A DNA stretch of 47,341 nt, from the IMG/VR virus record IMGVR_UViG_3300042465_004617, positions 1 to 47,341 of that record; one strand, 5' to 3'. The notes under the pieces are model-generated. The model made no database searches and was not told the DNA's origin. It was given only the letters and a program-made list of their open reading frames with translations. A program made the translations under genes and the position numbers. Below, piece after piece: positions 13,816 through 36,721 of this stretch; position 1 is the stretch's first letter, and every line of letters starts with the position of its first letter. This DNA comes from a virus.

Positions 13816-14313
13816 ATGGCATACATAAAAAAACCAAGAACTAAGAAATTAACAGCAAAAGAAATTCTCGCATTGCCAGTAAAAGAAATGTTTCCAGCCG
13901 TAAAAAAACAAGGGTTTGGAACAGGCATACATAAGACAATCATGGACCGTGTCAAAAAACGTGTTTTCTTTGACTCTAGAGAGAACTTCTACCGTTCTAT
14001 GGCACGTAACCTCAAAAACAACGTAGAGTTCCTACAAACGCACCATAAGATGACTGAGGGCGAATTTACAACTCGGGTTATTCAAAAAACATCATTCTCC
14101 AATTCTCCTAGACACGGTTCTAATTTTTTATTAGAGGGAACATACGATTACAATAGTTTACACGATATGGCATTTTCAATCGGTTTTGCTTTTAATATAA
14201 GCCTATATGAATTGCTTCATTTCAATCTCGAATTGTTATACATGAAGGATTTTCGAGAAGGTTTTGAATTTTATGCGTGTGAGCCGTATGATATTATTAG
14301 TTTGCACGAGTAA
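13816..14313 (+). CDS. Basic early protein, unknown
   Basis: The product is 165 residues, with a lysine-rich N-terminus (MAYIKKPRTKKLTAKEILAL) and a more ordinary C-terminal half containing aromatic helical sequence (FNISLYELLHFNLELLYMKD). It is the first gene after the structured leader region, so it is probably expressed very early. No recognised domain. The basic N-terminus would suit nucleic-acid binding, but that is only a compositional hint. Confidence 0.7.
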   Translation: MAYIKKPRTKKLTAKEILALPVKEMFPAVKKQGFGTGIHKTIMDRVKKRVFFDSRENFYRSMARNLKNNVEFLQTHHKMTEGEFTTRVIQKTSFSNSPRHGSNFLLEGTYDYNSLHDMAFSIGFAFNISLYELLHFNLELLYMKDFREGFEFYACEPYDIISLHE

Positions 14314-16617: not shown

Positions 16618-17003
16618 GAAAAAATTCTAACTTTACTCTCGATGTTTTAAAATACGTGATCTATGAAAAAGAGACCGACAATGATTATATCCAGTGTATT
16701 TTGGTAAATGCTGGGGTCTCAGAACATCTTATTATCAAAACCCCAAGTCTAATACTAACAGTAGAGGTAAAGACAAACATAAATAACTTTAATCAAGAAA
16801 GAAAAGGATTTAAATCATCTCTTCTATCAATAACCTGTGGAGAGTATAAGATAGGAATAACAACATTCTTATCGAACATAAGAATCATTTCTAAGTTCTT
16901 TAAAGCCATTAAACTACTTATGTCAATACCTAAGTTCACTCCTATACAGTTTTACAGCGTAGAGTACCAGGATGTGATAATATACCACCACAATAAAGAA
17001 TAA
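16614..17003 (+). CDS. Unknown protein downstream of exonuclease
   Basis: The product is 129 residues, predicted mixed alpha/beta with a basic centre. The N-terminal half contains repeated hydrophobic beta-like segments (DYIQCILVNAGVSEHLIIKT), the C-terminal half a helix (IRIISKFFKAIKLLMSIPKF). It is coupled to the exonuclease by a 4-nt overlap and is among the last genes before the terminator at 17129. Not recognised. Confidence 0.65.
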   Translation: MRKNSNFTLDVLKYVIYEKETDNDYIQCILVNAGVSEHLIIKTPSLILTVEVKTNINNFNQERKGFKSSLLSITCGEYKIGITTFLSNIRIISKFFKAIKLLMSIPKFTPIQFYSVEYQDVIIYHHNKE

Positions 17004-17004
17004 T

Positions 17005-17100
17005 ATGTACGGATACGACTTTCTCATAATCATGGTTACCGCATCAATAGTCCTTCTTGTTTGGGACTGGTGTTTTCCCCCGAATAAGAATAAGAAATAA
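17005..17100 (+). CDS. 31-residue single-pass membrane microprotein
   Basis: ATG lies one base after the preceding stop. The product has one hydrophobic stretch (FLIIMVTASIVLLVW, about residues 6-20) and a short basic tail (NKNKK), so it would sit in the inner membrane with the tail in the cytoplasm. It ends 28 nt before the terminator. Phage microproteins of this form often inhibit host or superinfecting phage functions, but nothing identifies a target. Confidence 0.5.
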   Translation: MYGYDFLIIMVTASIVLLVWDWCFPPNKNKK

Positions 17101-17128
17101 AAGCCATTTTATTGTTTCATAGGTTAAG

Positions 17129-17173
17129 GCCACACTTCGGTGTCTAATTTATTGGACAGGGTGTGGCTTTTTT
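17129..17173 (+). terminator. Intrinsic terminator carrying an operator-like palindrome
   Basis: GCCACAC (17129-17135) pairs with GTGTGGC (17161-17167) and six T follow. The 25-nt loop holds one copy of the 18-bp palindrome family (17141-17158) seen again at 17.6 and 18.1 kb. It ends the SSB-exonuclease operon. Protein binding to the DNA site, or pairing within the RNA loop, could modulate termination. Confidence 0.7.
17141..17158. promoter_or_regulatory. 18-bp palindromic site, copy 1
   Basis: TGTCTAATTTATTGGACA. It matches the family consensus TGTCYAATTTATTRGACA, in which the outer eight bases on each side are inverted repeats. Located in the terminator loop. Confidence 0.6.
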
Positions 17174-17290
17174 AGTTTATAACCCCCCTCAGAAGCACTA
17201 CCAAGGTCATTAAAGTGTTAAAAAGATGTGGATAGTCTCAAAAATTACGGGGGTAAGACCCTGAGTTATCCACAAAACGTCAAAAATAAG

Positions 17291-17320
17291 CATAAATTGG
17301 CTCAAATTAGCTCAAATTAG
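17291..17320. repeat. 10-bp tandem repeats
   Basis: Three consecutive 10-mers: CATAAATTGG and two exact CTCAAATTAG. Related units (GCTAAATTT, GCTTAAATTGG) follow at 17347-17366. One unit per helical turn would present binding sites on one DNA face, as iterons do. Confidence 0.6.
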
Positions 17321-17384
17321 CAAAACGTGCAAAATTTACAAGTTTCGCTAAATTTGCTTAAATTGGAATCGAGAGACTGGGTAT

Positions 17385-17433
17385 AAAAAATGTACTCACA
17401 TTTAAAAAATGTACTCACATTTAAAAAATGTAC
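17385..17433. repeat. 19-bp tandem repeat, 2.6 copies
   Basis: The unit AAAAAATGTACTCACATTT occurs exactly twice (17385-17403, 17404-17422), then a third partial copy runs to 17433 before a C-run. Each unit contains a small inverted repeat (AATGT-ACTC-ACATT), so each is itself a potential dimer site. Confidence 0.75.
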
Positions 17434-17573
17434 CCCCCTGTGATAAAAATACCCCCCTGGTTTTATTCAATCCCCCCCTCCCTAGGGAAAGGTTCAAAAA
17501 ACTAATGGTAACGCGGGTGTGGTAGGTAAGCGCTAGCAGATCCCAAACCCCACCCCGTAAAAAAAATACCCCC

Positions 17574-17591
17574 CGTCCATTTTAGTGGACA
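17574..17591. promoter_or_regulatory. 18-bp palindromic site, divergent copy
   Basis: CGTCCATTTTAGTGGACA keeps the GTCCA/TGGAC arms of the family but has a different centre. It abuts the next site at 17596. Confidence 0.4.
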
Positions 17592-17595
17592 GTGA

Positions 17596-17613
17596 ATTCT
17601 AATTTATTAGACA
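17596..17613. promoter_or_regulatory. 18-bp palindromic site, copy 2
   Basis: ATTCTAATTTATTAGACA matches 16 of 18 positions of the consensus; the first two bases differ. Confidence 0.5.
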
Positions 17614-17625
17614 CAATGCCTAACA

Positions 17626-17643
17626 TGTACAATAAATTAGACA
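17626..17643. promoter_or_regulatory. 18-bp palindromic site, copy 3
   Basis: TGTACAATAAATTAGACA is the family in opposite orientation (reverse complement TGTCTAATTTATTGTACA). A more degenerate copy may lie at 17658-17675. Confidence 0.55.
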
Positions 17644-17810
17644 AAAAAAATTCGCTCTGTCCTGTTTATTGGTGTGCAGTATAGTGTACAAACTTTTGTT
17701 AGTTAACACAGCACAACCCATAAGGAAAAACAATCACAATTGCAAATTTAGTTTGTCACTTTATTGTCAGATTTTTTTTATTCCATTCCAAAAGACAAAC
17801 AATACAAGGA

Positions 17811-17833
17811 ACGCACACGCACGCACGCACGCG
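17811..17833. repeat. ACGC microsatellite
   Basis: A short run of ACGC units with one interruption, alternating purine and pyrimidine, ending in ACGCGT. It is GC-rich inside an AT-rich region, so it stands out. Possibly a slippage-prone tract; no function evident. Confidence 0.6.
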
Positions 17834-18035
17834 TATAACTATTTAATCTTACATTACCACTATTCATTTGTCTGTTTTGTGTCACATTTTTACGTTATTA
17901 CTTATAGTTATTTAGAATCATTCTAAATTTCATTTTTTTTAATTTGTAATTCATTGAATATCAGTAACTTAAAAAATACTTTTATATTTATTCAAAAATA
18001 ATTCAAAAAGTATTTTTTTATCTGAATGTTAAAAC

Positions 18036-18043
18036 TATCTTTG
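18036..18043 (+). promoter_or_regulatory. Promoter -7 element before the 193-residue gene
   Basis: TATCTTTG, with T-rich sequence (TTTT) at the expected 20-nt distance upstream instead of TTTG. Transcription from here would run through the two palindromic sites at 18112-18147 before reaching the gene at 18219. Confidence 0.48.
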
Positions 18044-18111
18044 TATTGCGTTCTAACATTATTAACATTATAAGTTCAAAAATAAGCCAATTTTTGAAGG
18101 TGTACCAGGTG

Positions 18112-18147: not shown

Positions 18148-18218
18148 CTAATGTTTTAGCGTCGTTCTTTGACATATTAAATGGGGTAAATTAAACCTAT
18201 CAAAACAATTTACCAAAC

Positions 18219-18800
18219 ATGAAAAACACTAAAAATGTGGTACAGGTTACAGAAGTAACAACCACGCAGCAAAACAAACTATCTATAACAATATTTCAAG
18301 AAGGCACAATTTCAAAAAGCCAAAAGGACGGCAATATTACTATAGATACAATAAAAAGAAGTGACAACGAAGTGACAATAAACACCGAATTAAGCAATGA
18401 TAAATTTAGTTTGCAAATCGGTAACTTTTTAAACTTACTCTTAAGTTCGAATGAATTCTTAAGACAACAAAAGTTTTTTAGTTCTAAATTAGATTTGTGC
18501 TTTGAAATTACTTTTAACAATGTAGAGTTAAAACAGGACGCAAATATTAATTTAAATGTACGTCCTAACTTCTTTAATAGTCCAAAAAGTTTACGCAAAT
18601 TTGCACATAATTTAACTTTATTATTTGCGAGATTTCAAGGCATATACACTGAATTTAAGTTTTTAGAAAGTAACGTTAATACAATTATCGAAGGCAAATT
18701 GAGTGAAGTATTAACACCTAAAAAGCAAAAAGAGAACACAATTAAAAACGTTGCATTTAAGCCTTTAAATTTAGAATTAATTCAACAAGCAAGTAACTAA
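18219..18800 (+). CDS. Unknown protein beside palindromic sites
   Basis: The 193-residue product is rich in Asn, Lys and Leu. The N-terminal third is Thr/Gln-rich and polar (VVQVTEVTTTQQNKLSITIF), the middle is beta-like (KLDLCFEITFNNVELKQDAN), and a helical segment follows (SLRKFAHNLTLLFARFQGIY). It stands alone between the candidate origin and a terminator, with two palindromic sites in its leader. That context suits an origin-binding initiator or a self-regulating repressor, but I see no HTH or other DNA-binding motif, so this is inference only. Confidence 0.65.
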   Translation: MKNTKNVVQVTEVTTTQQNKLSITIFQEGTISKSQKDGNITIDTIKRSDNEVTINTELSNDKFSLQIGNFLNLLLSSNEFLRQQKFFSSKLDLCFEITFNNVELKQDANINLNVRPNFFNSPKSLRKFAHNLTLLFARFQGIYTEFKFLESNVNTIIEGKLSEVLTPKKQKENTIKNVAFKPLNLELIQQASN

Positions 18801-18843
18801 AACAATTAACCAAAAAACACACCCCATTTAATATGTCAATTTT

Positions 18844-18872
18844 AACCCTTGATTCATTTCAGGGGTTTTTTT
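18844..18872 (+). terminator. Intrinsic terminator
   Basis: AACCCTT (18844-18850) pairs with AGGGGTT (18861-18867, one wobble) around a 10-nt loop, followed by a run of T. It closes the single-gene unit 18219-18800 and isolates the structured region that follows. Confidence 0.75.
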
Positions 18873-18929
18873 ATGAATTTTTTGGAATGGGTTTATACCT
18901 ACCTATTCCCTATTCCCTAAAGTTCAAAC

Positions 18930-18937
18930 TATATTTG
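18930..18937 (+). promoter_or_regulatory. Promoter -7 element before structured RNA
   Basis: A perfect TATATTTG lies 58 nt after the terminator. There is no TTG at the standard -33 distance, so the promoter is either weak or activator-dependent. It would start the structured region at about 18944. Confidence 0.48.
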
Positions 18938-19216
18938 ATATTGTCCTATCCTATATAGTGCCATGAGTGAACTAAAGATATTTCTTGAGGGTTCTGAGTC
19001 CCCACCAATTGGGGAACTTACTTGCACATTATAAGCCATTTTGTGCCTGCCTATTCACTCAACACAGACAATAAACTGTGTGGCTGTTATGTTTGCCTTA
19101 AGTAGAGAAAACTACGTTGAGAAAACTTTCACGTTGTACTGATAAGTACATTAAAAAGCGGTCGATTCTGCAACACAGAGGAAACCCAGCAAACAAATGC
19201 CGAATAAATTACCGTT

Positions 19217-19255
19217 GTGCCTATAGTCGATGGCTTCAAGTGTAAACGCTTACAC
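19217..19255 (+). repeat. Two-hairpin RNA module, copy 1
   Basis: TGTGCCTATAGTCGATGGCT contains a GCC/GGC mini-stem, followed by GTGTAA-ACGC-TTACAC. Copy 2 at 19414-19454 keeps the primary sequence GTGCC-n-ATAGTCGA-n-GGCTT and the hairpin, whose loop again contains AACGC or ACGC. Confidence 0.6.
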
Positions 19256-19413
19256 GCAATTCGCATACAAATCAATGTCAGCCTGTTTGGGGCAGACCGT
19301 CCGCCTCAGGAACGAGTGTGTTATATCGTAATGCACACCTATGGCTTAGACTAACTACATTCATTTTGTTTTAGCCTATCCATAAATACCAAACAAACCT
19401 TTATTCCTTTTAC

Positions 19414-19454
19414 GTGCCAATAGTCGACGGCTTAATATGTGCAACGCTCACATA
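19414..19454 (+). repeat. Two-hairpin RNA module, copy 2
   Basis: GTGCCAATAGTCGACGGCTT is followed by a TATGTG/CACATA stem with loop CAACGCT. The stem bases differ from copy 1 but pairing is kept, which is compensatory variation and good evidence for RNA-level selection. Confidence 0.6.
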
Positions 19455-19539
19455 CGGGATCTATTCTACCATCAGGGCAAGGACTATTCATGTAGTTATG
19501 CTTCAATGCAACCTTGCCCTCCACCTAAATTATAAAACT

Positions 19540-19692
19540 ATGAAATTCATTATCAAATCAGAATGCAAAAAGATCTTAGACGCTAAAACTATTGCCAGAA
19601 TGGAAAACCAACGTAAATTAAATGTTTACCGTCCCTCTAATGGTAAGTTAAGTAAAACTAAATTTGGTTATAGAGATTGTTCTTTCCTATAA
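19540..19692 (+). CDS. 50-residue basic protein, unknown
   Basis: Chosen start MKFIIKSECKKILDAKTIAR at 19540; the frame is open further upstream but that part lies in the structured RNA region and is not protein-like. The product is basic (Lys/Arg-rich) and short. It sits between the RNA and a terminator at 19726, so it may be translated from the 3' end of the same transcript. Not recognised. Confidence 0.55.
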   Translation: MKFIIKSECKKILDAKTIARMENQRKLNVYRPSNGKLSKTKFGYRDCSFL

Positions 19693-19725
19693 GATTTCAA
19701 TAATATTCTGAGACCACGCCCATTC

Positions 19726-19753
19726 AGCCCTATCTTAATCGGTAGGGCTTTTT
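19726..19753 (+). terminator. Intrinsic terminator
   Basis: A perfect 7-bp stem AGCCCTA/TAGGGCT (19726-19732 with 19743-19749), loop TCTTAATCGG, followed by TTTTT. It separates the structured RNA and 50-residue gene from the early-gene cluster starting at 19771. Confidence 0.82.
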
Positions 19754-19770
19754 CTATTTTAAAATAAACC

Positions 19771-20019
19771 ATGAACTATACTAAACTAATCGACTTAGAT
19801 CCTACATCGTTTGGGATCATTACTAATTCAAAAGGTCAACAGATAGAATTTGTTGAACATCCTAGACTAGGAGATGAGTATCCTGTTATCTGTGTGTGTC
19901 ACGAATTAGAATTGGCTGAGTGCTCAGACTTTTTTGATACTGATGACATGGTTGCTGACCACAAAGAGTACGAACCTTGGTTCGATGAAACTAACACATT
20001 AAGATTTGGAACATTATGA
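19771..20019 (+). CDS. Small acidic early protein
   Basis: The product is 82 residues and acidic (CHELELAECSDFFDTDDMVA). First gene of the long early cluster, 18 nt after a terminator, with no clear promoter between. The next gene starts inside its stop (ATGA). Function unknown. Confidence 0.7.
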   Translation: MNYTKLIDLDPTSFGIITNSKGQQIEFVEHPRLGDEYPVICVCHELELAECSDFFDTDDMVADHKEYEPWFDETNTLRFGTL

Positions 20020-29773: not shown

Positions 29774-30094
29774 ATGAGTAACCCAGAAGTAATCACACAT
29801 CTTGCAAGAATCATATTCAAATTAAAAGATGTTAGCAAAGAAGATAAAGATTTATTGGTATCACTGATGAAAAAACACACAAAAAGTAGTAACTTTGTTC
29901 CCCCCTCTATAGAAGAGGTTGAAGAGTATTTAAAGAATGAAGGTTATCTGAGACCGCGTGTGTGTGCAGATCAGTTTGTAAGTTTCTATGGATCAAAAGG
30001 TTGGATGATCGGTAAGAACAAAATGAAAAACTGGAAACTCGCAACCAAGCAGTGGAAGGAATGGGAAAAGAAAAATAAAAACATTATCGTATGA
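29774..30094 (+). CDS. DnaT-like/replication accessory protein
   Basis: The product is 106 residues. The C-terminal half contains FVSFYGSKGWMIGKNKMKNW followed by KLATKQWKEW, a domain often found at the end of phage and Bacteroidota replication-initiation or helicase-loading proteins. N-terminal part is helical. It directly precedes the primase-helicase (ATGA overlap), supporting a loader role. Function inferred from domain and context. Confidence 0.65.
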   Translation: MSNPEVITHLARIIFKLKDVSKEDKDLLVSLMKKHTKSSNFVPPSIEEVEEYLKNEGYLRPRVCADQFVSFYGSKGWMIGKNKMKNWKLATKQWKEWEKKNKNIIV

Positions 30095-36644: not shown

Positions 36645-36721
36645 GGATCCTTAGCTCAGTTGGTCAGAGCACCCGGCTCATAACCGGTAGGTCGGAGGTT
36701 CAAGTCCTTCAGGATCCACCA
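36645..36721 (+). tRNA. tRNA-Met(CAT)
   Basis: A complete cloverleaf with 7-bp acceptor GGATCCT/AGGATCC, D arm GCTC/GAGC, anticodon loop CTCATAA (anticodon CAT at 36679-36681), T arm GGAGG-TTCAAGT-CCTTC and an encoded CCA end. The fully paired first base and lack of three GC pairs in the anticodon stem argue against an initiator. One C-T mismatch tops the anticodon stem. An Ile2 tRNA modified at C34 would have the same anticodon and cannot be excluded. The following gene starts 1 nt after CCA. Confidence 0.95.

Follow-up and report, generated by a model that had tools for sequence, protein, structure and literature searches.

What is the stretch of nearly 600 nt that lies ahead of a run of small phage genes and appears to encode no protein? 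The stretch occupies positions 18944-19539 (+ strand) of a 47,341-base window, which is IMG/VR virus record IMGVR_UViG_3300042465_004617. The window encodes primase/helicase, DNA polymerase, and RecE-like proteins, each with a match among phage families. Its genes have their nearest named relatives in Cellulophaga phages and other Bacteroidetes phages, and a Flavobacterium genome holds one relative of a neighbouring 82-amino-acid gene; because of these relatives, the host of this virus is probably a flavobacterium. The stretch sits between an intrinsic terminator (terminator 1, 18844-18867, + strand) and an open reading frame of 50 amino acids (ORF50, 19540-19692, + strand). The 82-amino-acid gene (19771-20019, + strand) is the first of an operon that, judged by its position and content, is likely to be expressed early. 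We also used this gene as the anchor for finding relatives.

An initial annotation had proposed that the stretch is a gene-free, structured RNA, perhaps of an undescribed class. Coding potential was scored with a model of codon usage learned from the long genes in the window. The ten open reading frames of at least 30 amino acids inside 18944-19539 scored from -0.26 to +0.17 bits per codon, whereas eleven of the window's small genes scored 0.16-0.40 bits per codon; this supports the gene-free claim. The GC content of the stretch is 0.41 (0.35 genome-wide), and a promoter element of the TAnnTTTG type (18930-18937) lies just ahead of its left edge. Evidence for structure is more mixed. The stretch as a whole folds with a z score of -3.1, but 300-nt tiles of leaders folded no better than coding controls (mean z of -1.1 versus -1.0), so we rejected tile folding energy as evidence of RNA structure. 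Similarly, the "at least eight exact helices" that had been described do not by themselves exceed what chance would give. Considering these results together with the repeats and conserved elements described below, 18944-19539 is a genuine gene-free element and most likely a structured RNA of about 600 bases that belongs to no catalogued family; that it is RNA at all is likely.

The initial annotation had also reported a two-hairpin module that is present twice, 197 nt apart, with covariation between the copies. Both copies are indeed there. The module GTGCC-N-ATAGTCGA-N-GGCTT is found at 19217 and again at 19414 (a spacing of 197 nt), and the copies agree at 18 of 20 positions; in 150 dinucleotide shuffles, the best internal match was 17 of 20, and this was reached only once. 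Module 1 (19217-19255, + strand) consists of GTGCCTATAGTCGATGGCTT and the hairpin GTGTAA-ACGC-TTACAC, and module 2 (19414-19454, + strand) consists of GTGCCAATAGTCGACGGCTT and the hairpin TATGTG-CAACGCT-CACATA. Both copies have this following hairpin (19240-19255 and 19436-19454), but the first hairpin is weak: it is GCC/GGC, with just three pairs around a 10-nt loop. Module 1 folds no better than its shuffles do (z = -0.3). If the second hairpins are aligned by their common AACGCT loop and read outward, then two of five pairs have changed on both sides and still pair (A-U/G-C and G-C/A-U), so covariation between the copies is genuine, though limited in extent.

The strongest structural element of the leader is one that was missing from the initial list: a three-way junction at 19474-19520 (+ strand). 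Its outer stem (AGGGCAAGG/CCTTGCCCT) has nine pairs and encloses two small hairpins, ACTAT/GTAGT and TGC-TTCAAT-GCA (the latter with the loop TTCAAT). The junction has a z score of -4.15, and none of 1,000 shuffles folded as well. A gap of 19 nt separates it from the ATG at 19540.

Among 2.9 million viral contigs, only one (L002) contains the exact module. The comparison with L002 divides the RNA into two parts. Its last 128 nt (19410-19537, + strand), which include module 2 and the three-way junction, have 93.8% identity to L002, and the conserved block has sharp edges, beginning just ahead of the module-2 sequence. The first 466 nt or so have no similarity to the L002 leader that BLAST can detect. 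For comparison, the upstream intergenic DNA is 72% identical, the terminator after the RNA is 95% identical, and the nearest early genes are 86-94% identical. Since the last 128 nt are 94% identical and the rest has no detectable similarity, module 2 and the junction are a unit that is retained while the remainder of the leader is exchanged. The cassette has five differences from L002. Two of these together convert a C-G pair to a U-A pair in the junction's second hairpin, which is a compensatory change; of the others, one turns the loop TTCAAT into TTCGAT (A to G), one falls on a base of the junction, and one on a base of the linker. The L002 counterpart of the junction has a z score of -3.4. 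Covariation among homologues, which had been suggested as a check, thus amounts to one compensatory pair in L002, and even with the internal repeat the support is thin because only one close relative carries the cassette.

Two other features of the comparison bear on how the RNA relates to its neighbours. In L002, an extra gene is placed between the RNA and ORF50, so the RNA is not bound to one downstream gene. Another close relative, L082 (78% identity in a neighbouring protein), has protein genes at this place instead of such an RNA, and the leader RNA is therefore accessory. Outside the cassette, a hairpin in the GTGTG...CACAC region (19316-19336, + strand) has a similar hairpin at the aligned place in L002, and a TTCTGAGTCCCC motif with a hairpin (18992-19020, + strand) is followed by a second instance of the motif at 19706, before the terminator; the motif also occurs twice in L002. 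In the form TTCTGAGWCCMCRCCMATT, it is found at 18992-19010, at 19706-19724, and on the minus strand at 16706-16724 of the window, and in L002 it is in the leader and before the terminator. These three sites compare with 0.12 expected by chance, but the pattern was derived from the sites themselves. We did not accept a 16-nt long-range pairing of 19022-19037 with 19429-19444; no counterpart was seen in L002.

Is the RNA a member of a known family? At the gathering score, the only Rfam match across the whole window is a tRNA at 36645. With a relaxed threshold (E <= 5) over 18800-19780, there were weak matches around the two terminators and nothing inside 18944-19539. The description of the RNA as unrecorded was therefore borne out: no Rfam family, including the riboswitch and leader families, matches 18944-19539. 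A BLAST search against phages matched only a terminator hairpin, and a looser gapped search for the module gave three added matches, all of them within protein genes, which we dismissed as chance. The size of the RNA had been compared to that of ROOL and GOLLD, which are likewise large structured phage RNAs, and GOLLD's conserved 3' part and less conserved 5' part parallel the contrast seen here (PMC12286853). Kinship with these families was not upheld. Their models match neither the window at the gathering score nor 18800-19780 at E <= 5; furthermore, ROOL and GOLLD are often in or near phage tRNA islands, whereas this RNA is an operon leader with a smaller conserved core and lies outside any such island. 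The phage's single tRNA gene, a tRNA-Met (CAT) at 36645-36721, is 17 kb away.

Right before the RNA is the candidate -7 element TATATTTG (18930-18937, + strand), which is of the Bacteroidetes type; no clear -33 element was seen. Farther upstream, a palindrome-rich intergenic stretch (17531-18048, + strand; 72% identical in L002) includes a promoter shared with L002, whose -7 element TATCTTTG (TAnnTTTG) is at 18036-18043 (+ strand). The L002 counterpart of this element directly precedes its leader RNA. After the RNA and ORF50 comes a strong intrinsic terminator (terminator 2, 19726-19749, + strand; AGCCCTATC-TTAATC-GGTAGGGCT-TTTTC), which is 95% identical in L002 and separates the RNA from the operon. 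A stricter scan of the window identified three intrinsic terminators on the + strand, of which two flank the RNA and none are in the early operon. The operon begins at 19771, which leaves just 22 nt for a promoter after terminator 2 (in L002, fewer than 20 nt). Outside of coding regions, the next TAnnTTTG seen is at 29890. Because a strong terminator precedes the operon and there is little room for a promoter between them, the operon seems to need read-through.

These observations suggest that the RNA is a structured, modular leader of the early operon that acts in antitermination, in the manner of put or nut sites. We put this forward tentatively, at somewhat less than even odds, although antitermination is probably the likeliest single mechanism for such a leader. 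The RNA would be transcribed from the promoter at 18930, the one at 18036, or both. Its functional core would be the 3' 128-nt cassette (the two-hairpin module and the three-way junction), and its modules would be exchangeable. Working in cis, either alone (as HK022 put does) or with the upstream rRNA-like boxA and the small basic ORF50, the RNA would act on the host's RNA polymerase during elongation; the polymerase, modified by the RNA, by ORF50, or by both, would then pass terminator 2 and reach the operon.

One close parallel is with the put RNAs, which are about 70 nt long, form two stem-loops, and lie behind early promoters; in phage HK022, put RNA modifies the elongating polymerase so that terminators are passed (PMC9378689). 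By description, putL and putR resemble the RNA studied here in that they are two-stem-loop modules in a phage's early-operon leader, ahead of terminators (PMC9378689). The location is of the put type, with a promoter element at 18930, a terminator at 19726-19749, and an operon, probably an early one, from 19771. There are also differences: put is about 70 nt with one copy per early promoter, whereas this leader is about 600 nt and has two copies of its module plus a three-way junction, and the window's host, unlike that of HK022, is probably a flavobacterium.

In phage lambda, a promoter (PL) is followed by an RNA site (nutL), a small basic gene (N), and a terminator (tL1). The window has the same order of promoter, RNA site, small basic gene, and terminator, and then the rest of the early operon. 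ORF50 is strongly basic (net charge of +9, pI 10.1) within a protein set that is otherwise mostly acidic, and it is suitably placed before terminator 2. Its L002 homologue is 53% identical and similarly basic (+9, pI 10.6). ORF50 has no match in Pfam, and its AlphaFold prediction was uninformative (pLDDT of 55).

As in lambda, there is also a boxA-like site: GTTCTTTGACATATTA (18164-18179, + strand) departs by a single mismatch from the boxA consensus of flavobacterial rRNA operons, GTTCWTTRACATATTG. In Flavobacteriaceae, this consensus fits sites upstream of the 16S gene as well as sites in the interval from 16S to 23S (the latter placement was read from distance), and GTTC[A/T]TT[G/A]ACATATTG is common to phage leaders and host rRNA operons. 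The exact sequence GTTCTTTGACATATT is absent from the 31 flavobacterial genomes searched because host sites directly upstream of 16S genes read GTTCATT. In the window and the related loci, + strand sites are enriched, with 10 at two or fewer mismatches as compared to about one for permuted patterns, and some leaders of other phages bear rRNA-type boxA sites as well. But a boxA is a short linear site and does not account for a structured RNA of 600 nt. Also, the site at 18164 precedes another gene (ORF193; 193 amino acids, 18219-18800, + strand) and terminator 1 rather than the RNA itself, so linking it to this RNA requires read-through of terminator 1. ORF193 is absent from L002, and neither ORF193 nor ORF50, used as a query, retrieved any relative beyond the L002 homologue of ORF50. 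Inverted 19-nt copies of TTGACATATTAAATGGGGT lie on both sides of ORF193 (18169-18187 and 18821-18839), and the first of them overlaps the boxA-like site; together with the gene, they look like an inserted unit or a stem that sequesters boxA.

Starting from the 82-amino-acid gene, we identified 47 viral loci, and many of them have a gene-free leader of 250-600 nt ahead of the early genes. Nine loci (L025, L029, L030, L041, L047, L050, L051, L054, and L059) share leader modules in varied combinations. The leaders in this set end in a three-way junction, which is followed by CTAAC in eight of the nine (CGAAC in L050). This junction has double changes in 5 of 15 pairs, and all cells of the alignment that contain letters are paired; if the neighbouring hairpin, which resembles a T-arm, is included, then the count of doubly changed pairs becomes 10 of 26. 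When eight of the loci were used to build a covariance model, it retrieved the ninth (L047) with E = 6e-13. These leaders and others (including those of L035 and L056) share with the window the neighbouring gene, a gene-free mosaic RNA, and a multi-branched junction at the 3' end before the first gene, but not sequence: they have no similarity to the window's RNA. A covariance model of the 3' junction and CTAACCA tail of the set of nine (R1) had no significant match in window positions 18800-19800 even with filters off, so the model gives no support for placing the window's RNA in the R1 family. The window's junction resembles the R1 junction in position and topology, a likeness that falls short of demonstrated homology. 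None of the other phages' leaders that we tested had a match in Rfam. Given these comparisons, the window's RNA is better regarded as belonging to a mosaic set of leaders that head the early operons of flavobacterial phages, rather than as a single class of giant RNA. Read-through as a purpose suits the window and L002, but in the loci that we examined, there was no intrinsic terminator downstream of the other leaders; antitermination is therefore not a need that they have in common, unless it acts against Rho.

If the RNA is not an antiterminator, it could be a leader of the attenuator or riboswitch type, in which a switch of fold in response to a ligand, a protein, or the state of the host would control either how far terminator 2 is read through or how well the first gene is translated. 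The leader does precede a conserved terminator, and there are competing pairings: ATAGTC in module 2 can pair with GACTAT in the junction, and in the minimum-energy fold of the whole L002 leader this pairing takes the junction's place. But the terminator lies about 200 nt downstream of the RNA, with a gene in between, so that a simple anti-terminator cannot form between the two. The window and L002 have different genes adjacent to the RNA, and the 5' 466 nt are unconserved, unlike known aptamers. We consider this explanation unlikely. We give the same low weight to a trans-acting accessory RNA (a decoy, a sponge, or an anti-host RNA) that is made early from swappable, partly tRNA-like modules and put to a use comparable to that of ROOL or GOLLD. 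Such a role would fit with the mosaic exchange of modules among phages, with the tRNA-like cloverleaf that ends the leaders of L035 and L056 and the T-arm-like hairpin in others, and with the replacement of the RNA by protein genes in L082. On the other hand, the RNA shows no sign of a 3' end of its own (the window has no terminator between it and the first gene), and its position is always that of an operon leader.

The remaining explanations dispense with a functional RNA. The stretch might be what is left of decayed genes, or structure that arose by chance, and its conserved 128 nt might code for a short peptide. Both phages keep one frame of the cassette open (MCNAHIR[D/Y]LFYHQGKDYSCSY[A/V]S[M/I]QPCPPPK) and three of the five differences are at third positions; the lack of excess folding in the 300-nt tiles would also be expected. 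However, this frame scores -0.02 bits per codon, as compared to 0.16-0.40 in real genes, three of the five differences alter a residue, and two of the five make a compensated base pair. We view this explanation as improbable. It is more improbable still that the stretch is a DNA-level element, such as part of a replication origin or an operator, whose palindromes merely resemble RNA hairpins. The palindrome-rich intergenic DNA directly upstream does also fold well (17100-17700, z of about -3.2 to -3.4). But the stretch is directional and starts at a promoter element, and L002 keeps the upstream palindromic DNA (72%) and not the 5' part of the RNA. The minimum of the cumulative skew is near 14000, where divergent gene blocks meet, and at 18-20 kb the curve has no more than a shallow secondary dip. 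The compensatory change in the junction, and the RNA-type covariation in other phages' leaders, also argue against this explanation.

More broadly, it is conceivable, but in our view rather doubtful, that an unrecognised and widespread set of mosaic leader RNAs heads the early operons of flavobacterial phages, with domains (two-hairpin modules, T-loop and tRNA-like elements, boxA, and three-way junctions) that are swapped as cassettes and that serve as RNA-based tools for taking over host transcription or translation. If so, then phages shuffle RNA domains by leader exchange much as they do small early proteins, and phage control of flavobacterial RNA polymerase would become directly testable with reporters. 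To our knowledge, antitermination by RNA alone or led by RNA occurs in few phages, chiefly HK022; in the open-access literature that we searched, we found no example from the Bacteroidetes.

Some other elements of these loci may be of interest. In the leaders of L030 (5079-5276), L025, L041, and L050, modules recur in differing orders and combinations. In L035 (5908-5988) and in L056, the 3' domain of the early leader, directly before the first gene, is the tRNA-like cloverleaf, which has an acceptor-like stem of seven pairs and a TTCGAGT loop; ARAGORN did not call a tRNA at either cloverleaf. Downstream of leaders, between small early genes, a simple pattern identified elements that resemble hammerhead ribozymes (GGTTAA-CTGANGAG-stem-GAAAC-stem-GTC/GTA-TTAACC), while a strict scan gave nothing. 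They are at L028:6269 and 6669, L029:2906, L041:5494, L059:4977, and L062:881 and 1962. Rfam gave only a sub-threshold match for these elements, to RAGATH-1-hammerhead, on L029; their stems vary in sequence yet stay paired. Finally, just upstream of the leaders in three loci (L008:2040-2130, L009:2950-3020, and L010:2800-2860), there are tandem repeats of the CTACGTAGTTNTACGTAG type, which are operator- or origin-like.
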